Made by a program: the position numbers and the translations under genes. This document shows positions 6,790-24,850 of a DNA stretch of 64,000 nucleotides, piece after piece. The notes under the pieces were generated by a model. That model saw only the letters and a list, made by a program, of their open reading frames with translations. It was not told the origin of the DNA and ran no database searches. Numbering within the stretch: position 1 is the stretch's first letter; each line of letters opens with the position of its first letter. Source of the DNA: Rhizocola hellebori (GTDB lineage: Bacteria > Actinomycetota > Actinomycetes > Mycobacteriales > Micromonosporaceae); contig NZ_BONY01000016.1 of the NCBI RefSeq assembly GCF_016862955.1, positions 62,001 through 126,000 on the forward strand, read 5' to 3'.

Positions 6790-9447
<2,658 letters not shown>

Positions 9448-9512: not shown

Positions 9513-10097
9513 GTGAGCAAAGGTGCGTCGACCCGGCAGGCCGTGCTCGACCAGGCCGTCGAGGTGGCCAGCCGGGTAGGGCTGGCCGGGCTGACCATCG
9601 GCTCGCTCGCCAATCAGGTGGAGCTGTCCAAGAGCGGGCTCTTCGCGCACTTCAAGTCCAAGGAGCAGCTGCAGATTCAGGTGCTGCAGCACGCTCGGGA
9701 GAGTTTCACCGACCAGGTGGTGCGTCCGGCGGTGGCCGCCCAACGTGGCGAGCCCAGGCTGCGCACGCTTTTCGAGCGCTGGCTGGTCATGGCGCGTGAG
9801 TCGGCGCCCGGCTGCCTGTTCGTCTCCGCCGCCACCGAGTTCGACGACCAGCCCGGTTCTGTGCGTGACCAGCTCGTGCGCGACCACAAGGATCTGATGG
9901 AGTCGATCGCGCAGATGTTCCGCGCCGCGGTCAGCGAAGGCCAGCTCAGCGAGCAGGCCGATCCCGAGCAGTTCGCCCACGACCTTTATGCCGTCATGCT
10001 GGGTTATTTCCATGCCCTGCGCCTCATTCAGGACCCGGCCGCGGAACGGCGGACCCGGCGTGCCTTCGAAAACCTGCTGAGCCAAGCGAAAAGCTGA
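9513..10097 (+). CDS. TetR-family transcriptional regulator
   Basis: A repressor of 194 residues. Its N-terminal helix-turn-helix (about 13-58) reads TIGSLANQVELSKSGLFAHF, a standard TetR signature, followed by a helical ligand-binding region (MARESAPGCLFVSAATEFDDQPG) of the type found in TetR proteins paired with alpha/beta hydrolases. The start is the GTG directly downstream of two palindromes that it probably binds itself. An open frame continues upstream into the GH3 3' end but carries no TetR homology. The alpha/beta hydrolase gene begins 26 bases after the stop and is the likely co-regulated partner. Confidence 0.9.
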   Translation: MSKGASTRQAVLDQAVEVASRVGLAGLTIGSLANQVELSKSGLFAHFKSKEQLQIQVLQHARESFTDQVVRPAVAAQRGEPRLRTLFERWLVMARESAPGCLFVSAATEFDDQPGSVRDQLVRDHKDLMESIAQMFRAAVSEGQLSEQADPEQFAHDLYAVMLGYFHALRLIQDPAAERRTRRAFENLLSQAKS

Positions 10098-10123
10098 CCC
10101 TTTGATCCTCAGGAGTGACCGTC

Positions 10124-11002
10124 ATGGCCTTCGAAAAAAGCACGATCGTTCGTTCTATGAACCTTCTTTTCTGGGTACTGGAAAGAGCCGCCCCAAAACC
10201 AGGAGCAGTTCTCGCAGAACGTCTCTGGTGCACGATCCCGGGCAGCGCCAAGCTGGCCGCCGCCGATCCGGGGGAGCGCTTCACGGTGCGCGTCAACGGT
10301 GTCCACGTCGTGGCCGAGGCGTGGGGCGACGGCCCCGCGGTCTATCTCATGCACGGCTGGGGCGGCAGCCGCCGTCAGCTCGACCCGTTCGTGGCCCCGC
10401 TGGTGGCGGCCGGGCATCGCGTCATCTCCCTTGACGCGCCAAGCCATGGCGAGTCCGGGCCGGGCACGTTCGGCCCGCGGCGCGGCCTGCTCACCGAGTT
10501 CAGCGAGGCGCTCGCGGCCACGGTGGCGGTGGCCGGCCCGGCGCACGGCCTGATCGCCCATTCGCTGGGCGGCACCGCAGCGGCCATCGCGATGCTCGAC
10601 GGCCTGCCGGTCGGGCAGGCGGTGCTCATTTCCGCGATGGGCGATCCGGCGCCCTACACCGTGGAGTTCGCGCGCTGGCTGGGTTTCGGTGAGCGGATCC
10701 GGTCGGGTTTCCTGCGCCGGCTGGAGAAACGGGTGGGCCGAGCGTTCGGCGACTTCGACGTCTTGAGCCGGGCGCGTGAGACCGAGGTGACACCGTTGCC
10801 GCCGCTGCTGGTCGTGCACGACCGCAAGGATCGCGAGGTGCACTATCGCGATGGCCAGGAGCTGGCGATGGCCTGGCCCAGCGCCGAGCTGCTGTCCACT
10901 GTCGGGTTAGGACACCGCCGCATCCTCAGCGACCCCGAGGTGATCACGCGAGCGGTAAATCACGTCGCCGCTATGGCAAGTTCGTCCGGGACTCCGAGAT
11001 GA
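10124..11002 (+). CDS. Alpha/beta hydrolase
   Basis: A predicted cytoplasmic esterase-type hydrolase of 292 residues. The oxyanion-hole segment is LMHGWGGS, the nucleophile Ser lies in AHSLGG and the catalytic His in GLGHRRIL. ATG at 10124 is preferred over the GTG at 10115 because AGGAG ends 8 bases before it. A TetR-operator-like sequence overlaps codons 6-10, so repression may act as a roadblock. The last 20 codons (EVITRAVNHVAAMASS...) are homologous at the DNA level to the 58-bp repeat array that continues past the stop codon, so the C-terminus is probably part of the repeat expansion or its source. The substrate is unknown. Confidence 0.88.
   Translation: MAFEKSTIVRSMNLLFWVLERAAPKPGAVLAERLWCTIPGSAKLAAADPGERFTVRVNGVHVVAEAWGDGPAVYLMHGWGGSRRQLDPFVAPLVAAGHRVISLDAPSHGESGPGTFGPRRGLLTEFSEALAATVAVAGPAHGLIAHSLGGTAAAIAMLDGLPVGQAVLISAMGDPAPYTVEFARWLGFGERIRSGFLRRLEKRVGRAFGDFDVLSRARETEVTPLPPLLVVHDRKDREVHYRDGQELAMAWPSAELLSTVGLGHRRILSDPEVITRAVNHVAAMASSSGTPR
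10139..10152. promoter_or_regulatory. Third, intragenic copy of the TetR operator-like palindrome
   Basis: AGCACGATCGTTCG matches 12 of 14 positions of the perfect palindrome at 9487-9500. It lies inside codons 6-10 of the hydrolase gene, about 640 bases from the upstream pair, which would allow looping or a roadblock. This is a sequence match only; binding is inferred. Confidence 0.5.
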
Positions 11003-11290
11003 CCACGCAGGCGGTGAACCGCGTGGCCGTGGTGGGCGAGTTTGCCCCGGGCCTCGGGTGACCACTTTGCGGTGGAACCGCGCGGCGGTGGTGGGTGAGT
11101 TTTCCTGGGCCTCGGGTGACCACTCTGCGGTGGAACCGCGCGGCGGTGGTGGGCGAGTTTTCCTGGGCCTCGGGTGACCACTCTGCGGTGGAACCGTGTG
11201 CCGTAGTGGCGAGTTTCCCGGGGCCTCGAGGTGACCCAGGCTGCGGTGAACCGCGTGGCCGTGGTGGGCGAGTTTGTGCCGATTTTGACC
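10941..11290. repeat. Tandem array of six units of about 58 bp, starting inside a gene
   Basis: Units begin at TGA(T/C)CA near 10941, 11000, 11059, 11117, 11175 and 11232, so the period shrinks from 59 to 57. A unit reads roughly TGACCACTCTGCGGTGGAAC, then CGCGCGGCGGTGGTGGGCGA, then GTTTTCCTGGGCCTCGGG. Copies 3 and 4 are near identical. Copy 1 is the diverged 3' coding end of the hydrolase gene, which suggests the array arose by slippage or duplication of that end. It fills the gap between the hydrolase and the antiporter genes. Confidence 0.85.
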
Positions 11291-11300
11291 GTTAAGGTCA
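11286..11300. promoter_or_regulatory. Inverted repeat before the antiporter gene
   Basis: TGACC-GTTAA-GGTCA forms a 15-base dyad 13 bases upstream of the antiporter GTG, just after the tandem array. It could be a small operator or part of the promoter. There is no further support. Confidence 0.4.
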
Positions 11301-11313
11301 ATACGCTCAGTGC

Positions 11314-13077
11314 GTGACCGGCGACCAGATTCTGATCGGGGTTGGGCTGACCCTGGTGCTCGCGGTCGGCTCGCAGATCCTGGCGAGCCGGCTGCGCATA
11401 CCCGCGCTCATCGTGCTGCTCCCGGCGGGATTCCTGGCCGGGGCGCTGACCGACACCATCCACCCGGATCTGTTGCTGGGCGCGGCATTCCAGCCGCTGG
11501 TGTCGCTTGCGGTGGCGGTCATCCTCTACGACGCCGGTCTCACGCTGGAGCTGCGCCGGCTCAAGGGCCACCTTCGCCATGTGGTGATCCGCCTGATCGC
11601 CTACGGGATCCCCATCACGCTCGTGTTGGCCGCGGCCGGCGCGGCTGTCCTGTTGGGGATGTCCAAACCGGCCGCGCTGATGCTCGGGACCATCCTTGTG
11701 GTGTCCGGGCCTACCGTGGTCGGCCCGCTGCTCAATTTCGTCCGGCCCGCCGAACACCTGCAGCGGATCCTCATCTGGGAGGGCACGCTGATCGACCCGG
11801 TGGGCGTCATCCTCGGCACGGTTGTGCTCGGCGGCATCGTGGCCACCCACGACGGGGCGAGCTTCCACGGCCTGGGCCAGTTTCTGCTCAGCCTGGCCGT
11901 GGGCGTGATCGGCGGCGCGATCGGCACCGTCGTGCTCTGGTTTCTGCTGCGCAAGCTTGAGCTCAACGAGGTGCTCGGCACCTCGGCCCAGCTGGCGACC
12001 GTCATCGGCGTGGCAGCGGCCTGCAATGTGGTGCGCGACGACACCGGGCTGACCGCGGCGATCGTCATCGGGCTGGCCGTGGCCAACCTGCCCCGCTTCG
12101 ACATCCCGGCACGGCGGCCGTTCTTGGAGACCACGGTGCAGCTGATCCTCGGCGTGCTGTTCATATCGATCTCGGCGACCATCACCCCGGAGTCGTTGCG
12201 CCATCTGGTTTTGCCCACTCTTGGCTTGGTGGCCCTGCTGGTGCTCGTCGCCCGGCCGCTGATCGCCTTCTTGGCATCGATCGGTACCGACCTCAGTCGG
12301 GGTGAGCGGCTCTTCGTCGGCTGGATGGCGCCGCGCGGGATCGTCGCCGCCGTCACCGCTTCCACGTTCTCGGCCACGCTGGCCGCCGCCGGGATCGGTG
12401 GCGCGGAAAAGATCCTGCCGGCCACCTTCCTCGTCATCGTGGCAACCGTGACCATCTACGGCCTGACCGCCGCCCCGATGGCGAAGCGGCTGGGCGTCAC
12501 CCGCCCGGCCCGTACCCGCCCACTGCTCATCGGCGGCGACCCCTGGGTGCTCGATCTGGGCCGCCTGCTTCAGGCCCGCGGACTGGAAGTGTTGATGTGG
12601 GCCGGATCGGACCAGCAGCGCGAGCAGATCGAGGCGGCCGGCCTGGAGCTGGCCCCCGGCGAGGTGGTCGCGGCGGCCACCGGCGAAGGGGTGCAGATCG
12701 AGGGCGTGACCGCGGTGCTGCTGCTGACCAACGAGGACGACTTCAACTCGCTGGCCGCGGTCATGATGCACGACGGCGTGGACGGCCCGGTCTACCGCCT
12801 GGCGCCGCCGCATCCCCGCCACGGGGTGGTGGCGCCCTACCTCGGAGGCGAAATCCTTTTCGGGCCAGAGCTTTCCGGCGCTGCCATCGCGCAGCGCTAC
12901 TCCGCCGGCAGCCGGATCTTCACCCGCCAGGCCAGCGGCCCCGCGCCGGCGCTGGTCGGACACGACGTCCTCTTCGTCATCCGCGCCGACGGCCAGCTGA
13001 TCCCCGTGACTCGTACTGCGGAGCCCGACGCCAGGCCCGGCGACGATCTCATCCTGCTCGGGCCGGCTGGCGCTTAG
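11314..13077 (+). CDS. Cation/proton antiporter (CPA1/NhaP type) with C-terminal RCK-like region
   Basis: An inner-membrane antiporter exchanging Na+ or K+ for protons. Residues 1-395 hold about twelve hydrophobic helices, with the core segments LPAGFLAGALTD, VSGPTVVGPLLNFVRP and WMAPRGIVAAVTASTFS typical of CPA1 proteins. The last 190 residues resemble TrkA-N plus TrkA-C (RCK) cytoplasmic domains, but the N part reads LIGGDPWVLDLGRLL and lacks a clean GxGxxG, so nucleotide gating may differ. The GTG start follows the tandem array. Its 3' end overlaps by 4 bases the convergent small membrane gene. Confidence 0.9.
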   Translation: MTGDQILIGVGLTLVLAVGSQILASRLRIPALIVLLPAGFLAGALTDTIHPDLLLGAAFQPLVSLAVAVILYDAGLTLELRRLKGHLRHVVIRLIAYGIPITLVLAAAGAAVLLGMSKPAALMLGTILVVSGPTVVGPLLNFVRPAEHLQRILIWEGTLIDPVGVILGTVVLGGIVATHDGASFHGLGQFLLSLAVGVIGGAIGTVVLWFLLRKLELNEVLGTSAQLATVIGVAAACNVVRDDTGLTAAIVIGLAVANLPRFDIPARRPFLETTVQLILGVLFISISATITPESLRHLVLPTLGLVALLVLVARPLIAFLASIGTDLSRGERLFVGWMAPRGIVAAVTASTFSATLAAAGIGGAEKILPATFLVIVATVTIYGLTAAPMAKRLGVTRPARTRPLLIGGDPWVLDLGRLLQARGLEVLMWAGSDQQREQIEAAGLELAPGEVVAAATGEGVQIEGVTAVLLLTNEDDFNSLAAVMMHDGVDGPVYRLAPPHPRHGVVAPYLGGEILFGPELSGAAIAQRYSAGSRIFTRQASGPAPALVGHDVLFVIRADGQLIPVTRTAEPDARPGDDLILLGPAGA

Positions 13078-13364
13078 GCGACCACGGTGGTGCGGCGGCC
13101 GCGGCGGAAGGCGCCCGAACCCCAGTGGGCGATGTCCAGCAGGGCACAGAGGCCGACCCAGAACCACTCCCAGCCGTCCAGCGGCCCACCGGTCACCCAC
13201 AGCAGCACGTACATCAGGGTGGCGAAGGGCAGGAAGAGGAACCCGAGTATTGGCCACAGCCAGCTGCTGAAGGCCGCGTCCATGAGGTTGGGCCGCAGGA
13301 TCCAGAAGATGATGAGCGCGAGCCGGGGAAACAGGCCCGCAAACAAAATGAACAAGCAGCCCAT
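13074..13364 (-). CDS. Small hydrophobic membrane protein
   Basis: A 96-residue protein with three or so membrane helices (MGCLFILFAGLFPRLALIIFW, WPILGFLFLPFATLMYVLLW, WEWFWVGLCALLDIAHWG) and a basic C-terminus. No function is recognised; proteins of this kind are common in actinomycetes. The ATG at 13364 is chosen over an upstream in-frame GTG (13373) because GAGAGG sits 8 bases before it. It is convergent with the antiporter gene and overlaps it by 4 bases. Confidence 0.7.
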   Translation of the reverse strand: MGCLFILFAGLFPRLALIIFWILRPNLMDAAFSSWLWPILGFLFLPFATLMYVLLWVTGGPLDGWEWFWVGLCALLDIAHWGSGAFRRGRRTTVVA

Positions 13365-13432
13365 TATGGTCACCTCTCAACAAATAGGTCACCTCAGGCT
13401 AGACAGGGATCACCGGTCGCGCTGGCGTTTGG

Positions 13433-21523: not shown

Positions 21524-21800
21524 AAAACCTTTTCGAACACCGTTCCTCACAATCCAACGTTCGCGAGCGTCGCGGGCGGGGGTTGATCGTCGCGAATTCC
21601 GGGAGATAGTGCGATCAACTCCAGGCGTAGCAACGATTTCCGTGAAAAACGCGACGACCTTGAAACGCGGCGGGGCGGTGTGTTTGCGGCGCGCCTTTGC
21701 TCTGCACCCATTGGCGCACATTGATCATGGGGTAGCGCCTATGGCGGCCTGCGCTTCCGGCGCACCTCGTTTCGCGCGGGCGACAGCGGCGCGACTGCAG

Positions 21801-22228
21801 GAATGTGCGGTGGCGCGGCGTCAGGGAGTGTGGGTGGCGCGGCTTCAGCGAGTGTGCGGCGGCGCGGCTTCAGGGAATGTGCGGTGGCGCGGTGTCAGGC
21901 AGAGTGGGTGGCGCGGCTTGAGCGAGTGTGCGGCGGCGCGGCTTTCAGGGAATGTGCGGTGGCGCGGTGTCAGGCAGTGTGGGTGGCGCAGCTTCAGGGA
22001 ATGTGCGGTGGCGCGGTGTCAGCGAGTGTGGGTGGCGCAGCTTCAGGGGATGTGCGGTGGCGCGGTGTCAGGGAGTGTGGGTGGCGCGGTTTCAGGGAGT
22101 GTGCGGTGGCGTGGCTTTAGGAATGTGCGGGAGGGCGCGGTTTGAGGGGTGTGTGGGAGGGCGCGGCTTCGGGAATTTGCGCGAAGGCCTGGCTTCTGAG
22201 GTTTGGGGCGATCGCCAGGTGTCAGGGC
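21801..22228. repeat. Minisatellite of about 17 units of 24-25 bp
   Basis: Two variant units alternate over most of the array: AATGTGCGGTGGCGCGGTGT-CAGG and AGTGTGGGTGGCGCGGCTTC-AGG, so the higher-order period is about 49 bases. Units degrade toward the right (22110-22228). The 24-base period keeps a frame open (VARCQAVWVAQLQ-type repeats) but no start signal or protein character supports coding. The array occupies the non-coding gap between the alpha-galactosidase promoter and uvrB. The 270 bases to its left (21524-21800) show no feature. Confidence 0.9.
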
Positions 22229-22547: not shown

Positions 22548-24674
22548 ATGGTGTTGGACATTCCCCGTCTCGACGGCCGCTTCAAGGTGGTCAGTGATTT
22601 CGTCCCGGCCGGCGATCAGCCCGCGGCCATCGAAGATCTTACGCGGCGGGTGCGCCGGGGAGACCGGCATACGGTGCTGCTTGGGGCGACCGGCACGGGT
22701 AAGTCGGCCACCACGGCCTGGCTGATCGAGCAGCTGCAGCGCCCGGCTCTGGTGATGGCGCCCAACAAGACCCTTTGCGCCCAGCTGGCCAAGGAGTTCC
22801 GCGAGTTGTTGCCCAACAACGCGGTGGAATATTTCGTCAGCTACTACGACTATTACCAGCCCGAGGCATACATCCCGCAGACCGACACCTACATCGAGAA
22901 GGACTCTTCGATCAACGAGGAGGTGGAGCGGCTGCGCCACTCGGCGACGATGTCCCTGTTGACGCGGCGCGACGTGGTCGTGGTGGCCACCGTGAGCGCG
23001 ATCTACGGTCTGGGCACGCCCGAGGAATATCTTTCGCGCACGGCGCGGGTGAAGGTCGGCGAGGAGATCGAGCGCGACAAGCTGTTGCGCCGCCTGGTCG
23101 ACATCCAATACGCGCGCAACGATCTGGCGTTCAGCCGGGGCACGTTCCGGGTTCGGGGCGACACGCTGGAGATCATCCCGGCCTATGAGGAGCTGGCGAT
23201 CCGCATCGAGTTCTTCGGCGATGAGATCGACAAGCTGTCCTACCTGCACCCGCTGACCGGTGACGTGGTGCGCGAGGTCGACCAGCTGCTGATCTTCCCG
23301 GCCACCCACTACACCGCTGGCCCCGAGCGCATGCAGCGCGCGCTGCGCGACATCGAGGCCGAGCTCGAGGCGCGCCTCGCCGAGCTGGAGCAGCAGAACA
23401 AACTGCTTGAGGCGCAACGGCTTCGCATGCGCACCAGCTACGACGTGGAGATGATGCGGCAGGTCGGGTTCTGCTCGGGCATCGAGAACTATTCGCGTCA
23501 CATCGATGGGCGCGAGGCGGGCAGCCCACCGCATTGTCTGATCGACTACTTCCCCGACGACTTCATCACCGTCATCGACGAGTCGCACGTGACGATCCCG
23601 CAGATCGGCGGCATGTACGAGGGCGACGCTTCGCGCAAACGCATTCTGGTCGACCACGGCTTCCGCCTGCCGAGCGCGCAAGACAACCGGCCGCTGCGTT
23701 TCGACGAGTTCCTCGAGCGCGTGGGGCAGATGGTGTTCCTGTCGGCGACGCCGGGGCCGTGGGAGATGGGGCAGGCTCAGGGCGAGTTCGTCGAGCAGGT
23801 GATCCGCCCGACCGGCCTGGTCGACCCGCAGGTCGTGCTCAAGCCCACCAAGGGCCAGATCGACGACCTCATGCACGAGATCCGGCTGCGCACCGACAAG
23901 AACGAGCGGGTTCTGGTGACCACCCTGACCAAGAAGATGGCCGAGGACCTGACCGACTATCTGTTGGAGCACGGCATCCGGGTCCGCTACCTGCATTCGG
24001 AGGTGGACACGCTGCGGCGGGTCGAGTTGCTCAAGGAGCTGCGCATCGGCGACTACGACGTGCTCGTCGGCATCAACCTGCTCCGGGAAGGTCTCGACCT
24101 GCCGGAGGTCTCGCTGGTCTCCATTTTGGACGCCGACAAGGAGGGCTTCCTGCGTTCGGGGCGCTCGCTGATCCAGACCATCGGCCGCGCCGCCCGTAAC
24201 GTCTCCGGCGAGGTCCACATGTATGCCGACAAGATGACGCCGTCGATGGCCGAGGCGATCGACGAGACCAACCGGCGGCGGGAAAAACAGGTGGCCCACA
24301 ACCTGGCCAACGGCGTTGACCCGCAACCGCTTCGCAAAAAGATTCACGACATCCTCGACGACATCTACCGCGAGGCCGAGGACACCGAGGGCGCGCTGGC
24401 CGGGCACGGCCCGGGCGGGTCGATCATCGGTGGGTCCGGCCGGCAGATGAGCCGGGGCAAGGCACCCACGCCGGGCACCCGTTCGCGCGACCGGGGCCGC
24501 ATCGAAGCCAGCAGCGAAGGCATGGCCCGCAAGGAACTCGTCGGGCTGGTCGGCGAGCTGAACGATCAGATGCTAGCCGCGGCCGCCGAGCTGCAGTTCG
24601 AGCTGGCGGCTCGCATCCGTGACGAAATCAAGGAGCTCAAGCGCGAGCTACGCCAGATGAGCGAAGCGTCCTAA
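22548..24674 (+). CDS. uvrB: Excinuclease ABC subunit B
   Basis: Damage-verifying helicase subunit of nucleotide excision repair, loaded by UvrA and recruiting UvrC. At 708 residues it is full length. Visible motifs: Walker [14 protein letters not shown], the beta-hairpin region [23 protein letters not shown], motif II IDESHV, motif [11 protein letters not shown], and a C-terminal UVR domain ([24 protein letters not shown]) that meets UvrC. ATG at 22548 gives [18 protein letters not shown]. The gene is followed by a 21-bp tandem array beginning 26 bases after the stop. Confidence 0.97.
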
Positions 24675-24700
24675 GCCCAGCCAGCGAGCCCAAGGCCAAG

Positions 24701-24850
24701 TGCGGTGGGCCAAGGCCAAGTGCGGTGAGGCAGAGGTCAAGCGCGGCGAGGCAGAGGTCAAGCGCGGTGAGGCAGAGGTCAAGCGCGGCGAGCGCGAGGC
24801 CGGGCGGGGTGAGGCAGCGGCCAAGCCAGGGTGCGGTGAGGCGAAGCTGC
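24701..24850. repeat. Tandem array of about seven 21-bp units
   Basis: Units start at 24701, 24721, 24742, 24763, 24784, 24805 and 24826, with consensus CGCGGTGAGGCAGAGGTCAAG. The middle three are near identical and the ends decay. It lies between the uvrB stop and the 3' end of the convergent hemerythrin gene. A 7-codon period (KRGEAEV) keeps a frame open, but there is no credible start. Confidence 0.88.

Follow-up and report, generated by a model that had tools for sequence, protein, structure and literature searches.

Between a predicted alpha/beta-hydrolase gene and a Na+/H+ exchanger (antiporter) gene lies a tandem array with units of about 58 bases, and its first unit is part of the hydrolase coding sequence. 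Did the array grow out of the gene, did it come from elsewhere, and does it matter to the genes on either side? The window is the whole 64-kb stretch of DNA analysed here (contig 16, 62001-126000), taken from a genome assembly of 10.77 Mb in 207 contigs that is 98.92% complete.

The array and the genes around it

The features needed for the argument are the following.

6790-9447: GH3 enzyme with CBM6 modules, upstream neighbour of the hydrolase region
ending at 10097: TetR-type regulator, upstream of the hydrolase
10124..11002, plus strand: alpha/beta-hydrolase gene (ORF; Abhydrolase_6 match; homologue at 66% identity in a family relative)
10931..10988, plus strand: unit 1, native C-terminal coding sequence, DPEVITRAVNHVAAMASSS (profile score 21.2)
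10989..11047, plus strand: unit 2, holds the live stop; shifted frame reads DSEMTTQAVNRVAVVGE (31/40 to unit 1; coding score 8.37)
11048..11105, plus strand: unit 3, read as non-coding (95% to unit 4)
11106..11163, plus strand: unit 4, read as non-coding (95% to unit 3)
11164..11220, plus strand: unit 5, read as non-coding, with small deletions (86% to unit 4)
11221..11279, plus strand: unit 6, matched frame reads LEVTQAAVNRVAVVGEF (84% to unit 2; coding score 6.66)
11285..11301, plus strand: perfect inverted repeat TTGACC-GTTAA-GGTCAA between array and antiporter, candidate operator
11314..13077, plus strand: Na+/H+ exchanger gene (Na_H_Exchanger E 1.3e-31; start agrees with homologues)

The hydrolase is read from ATG 10124 (GTG 10115 is the start of the mechanical ORF), and its Abhydrolase_6 domain (E 4e-14) spans 10118-10999. 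For the exchanger, the predicted starts of three of the four homologues coincide with residue 1 at 11314, and the previous stop in its frame is TAA 11293. The gap from the hydrolase stop to the exchanger is 311 bases, 34 of which separate the end of unit 6 from the antiporter start.

The six units occupy 10931-11279. Their anchor, GTGA[CT]C or ATGACC, stands at 10940, 10999, 11058, 11116, 11174 and 11231, confirming the six units and the spacings of 59, 59, 58, 58 and 57 bases given in the sequence-only reading. The same reading had the second unit straddling the hydrolase stop, and the TGA at 11000-11002 is indeed located within unit 2. In TRF the array has a period of 58 bases, 4.6 copies and 87% matches and spans 11011-11275, and a repeat finder delimited five copies at 10987-11276 with spacings of 59, 58, 58 and 57. 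What would be a seventh anchor, the GTGACC at 11314, forms the antiporter start, and its flanking bases are unlike the units. No further units were found beyond the array, the adjoining sequence scoring 12 upstream (10873-10930) and 13 downstream (11280-11338). The array is also crossed by two mechanical ORFs, one of 66 amino acids on the plus strand (11095-11295) and one of 810 amino acids on the minus strand (10960-13392), and the home-made gene prediction chose neither.

A bacterial minisatellite consists of units roughly ten to a hundred bases long, arranged head to tail and found at one locus only. The copies described here stand head to tail and their unit falls within the range of tens to a hundred bases. 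An in-frame coding repeat has a unit that is a multiple of three and keeps its frame, and the series 59, 59, 58, 58, 57 does not.

Unit 1 and the descent of the copies

The homologue search of 354 family genomes yielded 82 matches in 76 genomes, of which the best 30 were taken, the window included. Six more loci were added, and with the window and one duplicate left out 34 homologues remained. Their typical end is the block D-P-x-[VI]-[VI]-x-x-V-V-x-[FYH]-[VIL], after which comes a tail variable in length and sequence. Against the profile of these 34 loci unit 1 scores 21.2 bits, a value reached by none of the 102,022 control 13-mers (six frames of the window, neighbouring controls overlapping). 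On the same profile unit 2 in its homologous shifted frame scores -0.01 bits (139/102022 controls as high), unit 6 scores -3.6 bits (506/102022) and units 3-5 reach -7.11 at best across the three forward frames. Because unit 1 fits so far above all the others, the gene end is the older part and the copies are decayed versions of it. Comparison of the hydrolase C-terminus with homologues, which had been proposed for finding the ancestral end, thus points to unit 1 as the genuine and ancestral C-terminus, in agreement with the earlier claims that unit 1 is the hydrolase's own coding sequence and that the array grows from the 3' end of the gene. The direction of descent, from gene end to array, is established. 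Unit 1 is nevertheless not just the original sequence left as it was, since it has atypical codons (score -2.33, GC3 0.65) while those of unit 2 are typical (8.37, GC3 1.0): either it has drifted too, or the copies preserve an older typical state or took up outside sequence. Quite different tandem repeats are present in the C-terminal tails of two homologous hydrolases, L041 (2396-2574) and L033 (2410-2491), both numbered on the hydrolase strand, and the tail therefore tolerates repeats.

Identity of unit 1 to all the other units, implied in the sequence-only reading, held in part. With unit 2 it shares 31/40 bases in an ungapped match (local score 35), adjacent and in register; a score of 35 was reached by one of 4375 control windows elsewhere in the 64 kb on both strands (8001, minus strand). 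Under looser scoring the same pair gives 25 vs a maximum of 19 among 3733 plus-strand windows. Similarity to unit 6 is weaker (22), and direct comparison with units 3, 4 and 5 gives background scores, 13 in each case where the background averages 14.8. Unit 1 is thus tied to units 3-5 only via units 2 and 6. Global alignment identities of unit 1 are 0.70 with unit 2, 0.67 with unit 6, 0.66 with unit 5, 0.63 with unit 4 and 0.60 with unit 3, and the closest pairs are units 3-4 (0.95), 4-5 (0.86) and 2-6 (0.84). The near identity of copies 3 and 4 noticed earlier amounts to 3 differences in 58 bases, and being 95% identical they appear to be a recent or recently homogenised pair. A separate left-flank test of the TRF consensus against the bases before 11011, which are a mixture of units 1 and 2, gave no signal (p 0.45).

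These results are best explained, with a probability of roughly 0.8, by a local minisatellite which arose by tandem duplication of the hydrolase 3' end, was enlarged by slippage or unequal recombination and has little function. About 59-60 bases from the 3' end of the coding sequence would first have been copied head to tail; the array would then have grown to six units by slippage or unequal recombination, and the old downstream flank would have been pushed away from the hydrolase gene. The present spacing of 57-59 bases shifts the reading frame from copy to copy, and for that reason the live gene ends in unit 2 and does not extend through the units that follow. The middle units would be young or homogenised and the outer ones would preserve older sequence, the whole being most likely a mere spacer, perhaps a variable one, ahead of the antiporter. 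We infer the duplication mechanism, the age order and the near-neutrality: the array is probably near-neutral, and it is plausible that it shifted the hydrolase stop codon. Counting against this explanation are the lack of direct similarity between unit 1 and units 3-5, the atypical codons of unit 1 beside the typical ones of unit 2, and two short weaker matches elsewhere in the genome (E 0.0032).

Coding-like remnants, the antiporter and possible regulation

Units 2 and 6 retain a coding-like residue. Read in the frame that matches the hydrolase, unit 2 has a coding score of 8.37 and unit 6 one of 6.66, values equalled or exceeded by 10 and 55, respectively, of 18,807 intergenic frames (1.264 Mb of genome, 6269 partly overlapping windows). 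These two units being copies of one another, their coding and profile signals are not independent.

Such codons would also be expected if the first duplication had been in frame (20 residues) and the hydrolase had once been read through the units to TGA 11315-11317, one-base indels later truncating it to unit 2; the former hydrolase end would then have overlapped the antiporter start by four bases. The unit 6 frame does stay open until that TGA, giving a four-base overlap with the exchanger GTG, and adding the longest junction (30 bases, from unit 1 to unit 2) to the longest body (39 bases, in units 2, 3, 4 and 6) was taken to give a 60-base unit, neither point being decisive. A 60-base unit is nevertheless absent among the present units, the best coding scores of units 3, 4 and 5 are only -0.21, 1.94 and -2.68, and the antiporter is missing beside the hydrolase in all nine distinct stretches examined (out of 34 loci), where one stretch reaches no more than 24 bases past the gene. 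We consider this course of events unlikely, though it survives better than the other alternatives.

The surroundings of the gene bear on function as well. A TetR relative lies upstream of the hydrolase in 9/9 distinct stretches examined (9 of 34 loci), and no hydrolase was found near the exchanger relatives in four stretches (0/4). Because the TetR relative is present in 9/9 stretches and the exchanger in 0/9, the array sits at the edge of a conserved TetR-hydrolase pair, before a non-conserved neighbour, which fits a tolerated spacer. The inverted repeat at 11285-11301 ends 12 bases before the antiporter start and may be an operator; TTGACC-N5-GGTCAA has this one perfect match in the window and five more at 2 mismatches.

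An array that finishes 34 bases ahead of the antiporter could conceivably tune its expression through the number of units, as suggested for the array between rnc and fpg1 of Mycobacterium tuberculosis, which is in a like position and whose length was reported to correlate with mRNA level (PMC2734929). The placing of promoters by the array, envisaged in the sequence-only reading, found no backing: scans of the array, weak for an actinobacterium, gave no match to a sigma-70-type promoter or terminator, and RNA folding was not unusual (z -0.32 for the whole array, 0.62 for one unit). The hydrolase-antiporter pair is, moreover, not conserved in the nine stretches examined, and we regard the regulatory role as rather improbable, slightly more so than the former in-frame repeat. 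Very improbable is the combined possibility that a C-terminal 20-residue hydrolase repeat has been caught decaying to a non-coding minisatellite, with unit number and one-base indels switching the tail and the translational coupling to the antiporter.

Distribution of the array and comparison with known repeats

In its own genome the array gave one match at E <= 1e-4 (a genus search in which the window's own genome was the only one), and it thus occupies one locus in the 207-contig assembly; related units at many genome loci, as in MIRU-like repeats, were not found. A 27-base pattern taken from units 3-4, to which units 2, 5 and 6 do not conform, hit the genome twice, both times inside the array. 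At E 0.001, 16/354 family genomes match, the window's own included, the hits elsewhere being short and partial (best outside the own genome: E 8.4e-7 over 56 bases). Five inspected hits (L058, L059, L063, L064 and L068) have no array of similar period in their 3-kb stretches, and phage and plasmid records gave no match (blastn 'distant', E 1e-5). An array of period near 58 was likewise not found at 35 other hydrolase loci (TRF score 50; the count includes L051 as well as its duplicate L024, and some loci have little sequence 3' of the gene). A dispersed repeat inserted at the hydrolase end, whose unit size would lie within the 40-100 base MIRU range (PMC2734929), is accordingly rejected as extremely improbable, the array being at a single locus with no other convincing genome copies, unit 1 native to the hydrolase family, and the family hits only partial in 15 other genomes of 354, with no array of like period in the five inspected.

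At three hydrolase loci there are arrays of period 16-36 close to the gene 3' end, and from 200 bases before to 300 after the hydrolase stop arrays occur at 3/34 loci. A hotspot at this position was considered; 213 of 16,724 bases there vs 864 of 134,840 elsewhere is an enrichment of about twofold, with too few arrays to claim it.

Within the source genome, the window and 60 further stretches, in all 1.264 Mb or about 12% of the total, were surveyed with TRF at score 80, period of at least 10 and at least 2.5 copies, against 933 genes of a home-made prediction (82% coding). The survey gave 22 arrays, of which 11 lie within predicted genes, 10 are intergenic and 1 crosses a gene 3' end. Three of the intergenic ones are in the window, the 58-base array included, and other periods include 57, 54, 49 and 48. 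With 22 arrays, 10 of them intergenic, in 1.264 Mb, the 58-base array belongs to a class that is common in its genome. Elsewhere in the window a large intergenic array of about 24/49 bases, of GGCGCGGCTTCAGGGAATGTGCGGT type, lies between two divergent predicted genes (21788-22196), and a 21-base array (24693-24826) begins 18 bases past the stop of the predicted gene 22548-24674. A period-33 array of the same genome (G000 C2:19976-20120) straddles the 3' end of a predicted gene.

Repeats that run over a stop codon or a gene end have been published before (PMC3689786; PMC9879509). In Yersinia pestis, 10/88 VNTR loci overlap stop codons and, as in the hydrolase array, the ORF stop codon is inside the repeat region (PMC3689786). 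Strain variation is demonstrated for those loci, whereas the hydrolase array is known from one genome, and 84.1% of their motifs are of 7-21 bases, in contrast to units of 57-59 (PMC3689786). Borg tandem repeat regions also have their first unit, at least partly, in a gene end and the rest between genes, but they are perfect, A-enriched and located on archaeal extrachromosomal elements, unlike the degenerate, GC-rich array of this bacterial genome (PMC9879509). The M. tuberculosis array ETR-F/VNTR3239 is, like the hydrolase array, lineage-specific, actinobacterial and fills the gap between two genes, in that case rnc and fpg1, a gap described as short in other species (PMC2734929). It differs in beginning 40 bases after the upstream stop and in being compound, with 55- and 79-base units, and of the two it is the only one for which variation and a correlation with expression have been measured (PMC2734929). 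No paper joining 'tandem repeats', 'Micromonosporaceae' and 'intergenic' was found in the open-access collection searched.

The array belongs to a known kind and no new mechanism is indicated. What it offers is a clear, small case of an intergenic minisatellite arising from a gene end, with the direction set by homologues, and if strains differ it would be a candidate typing marker.
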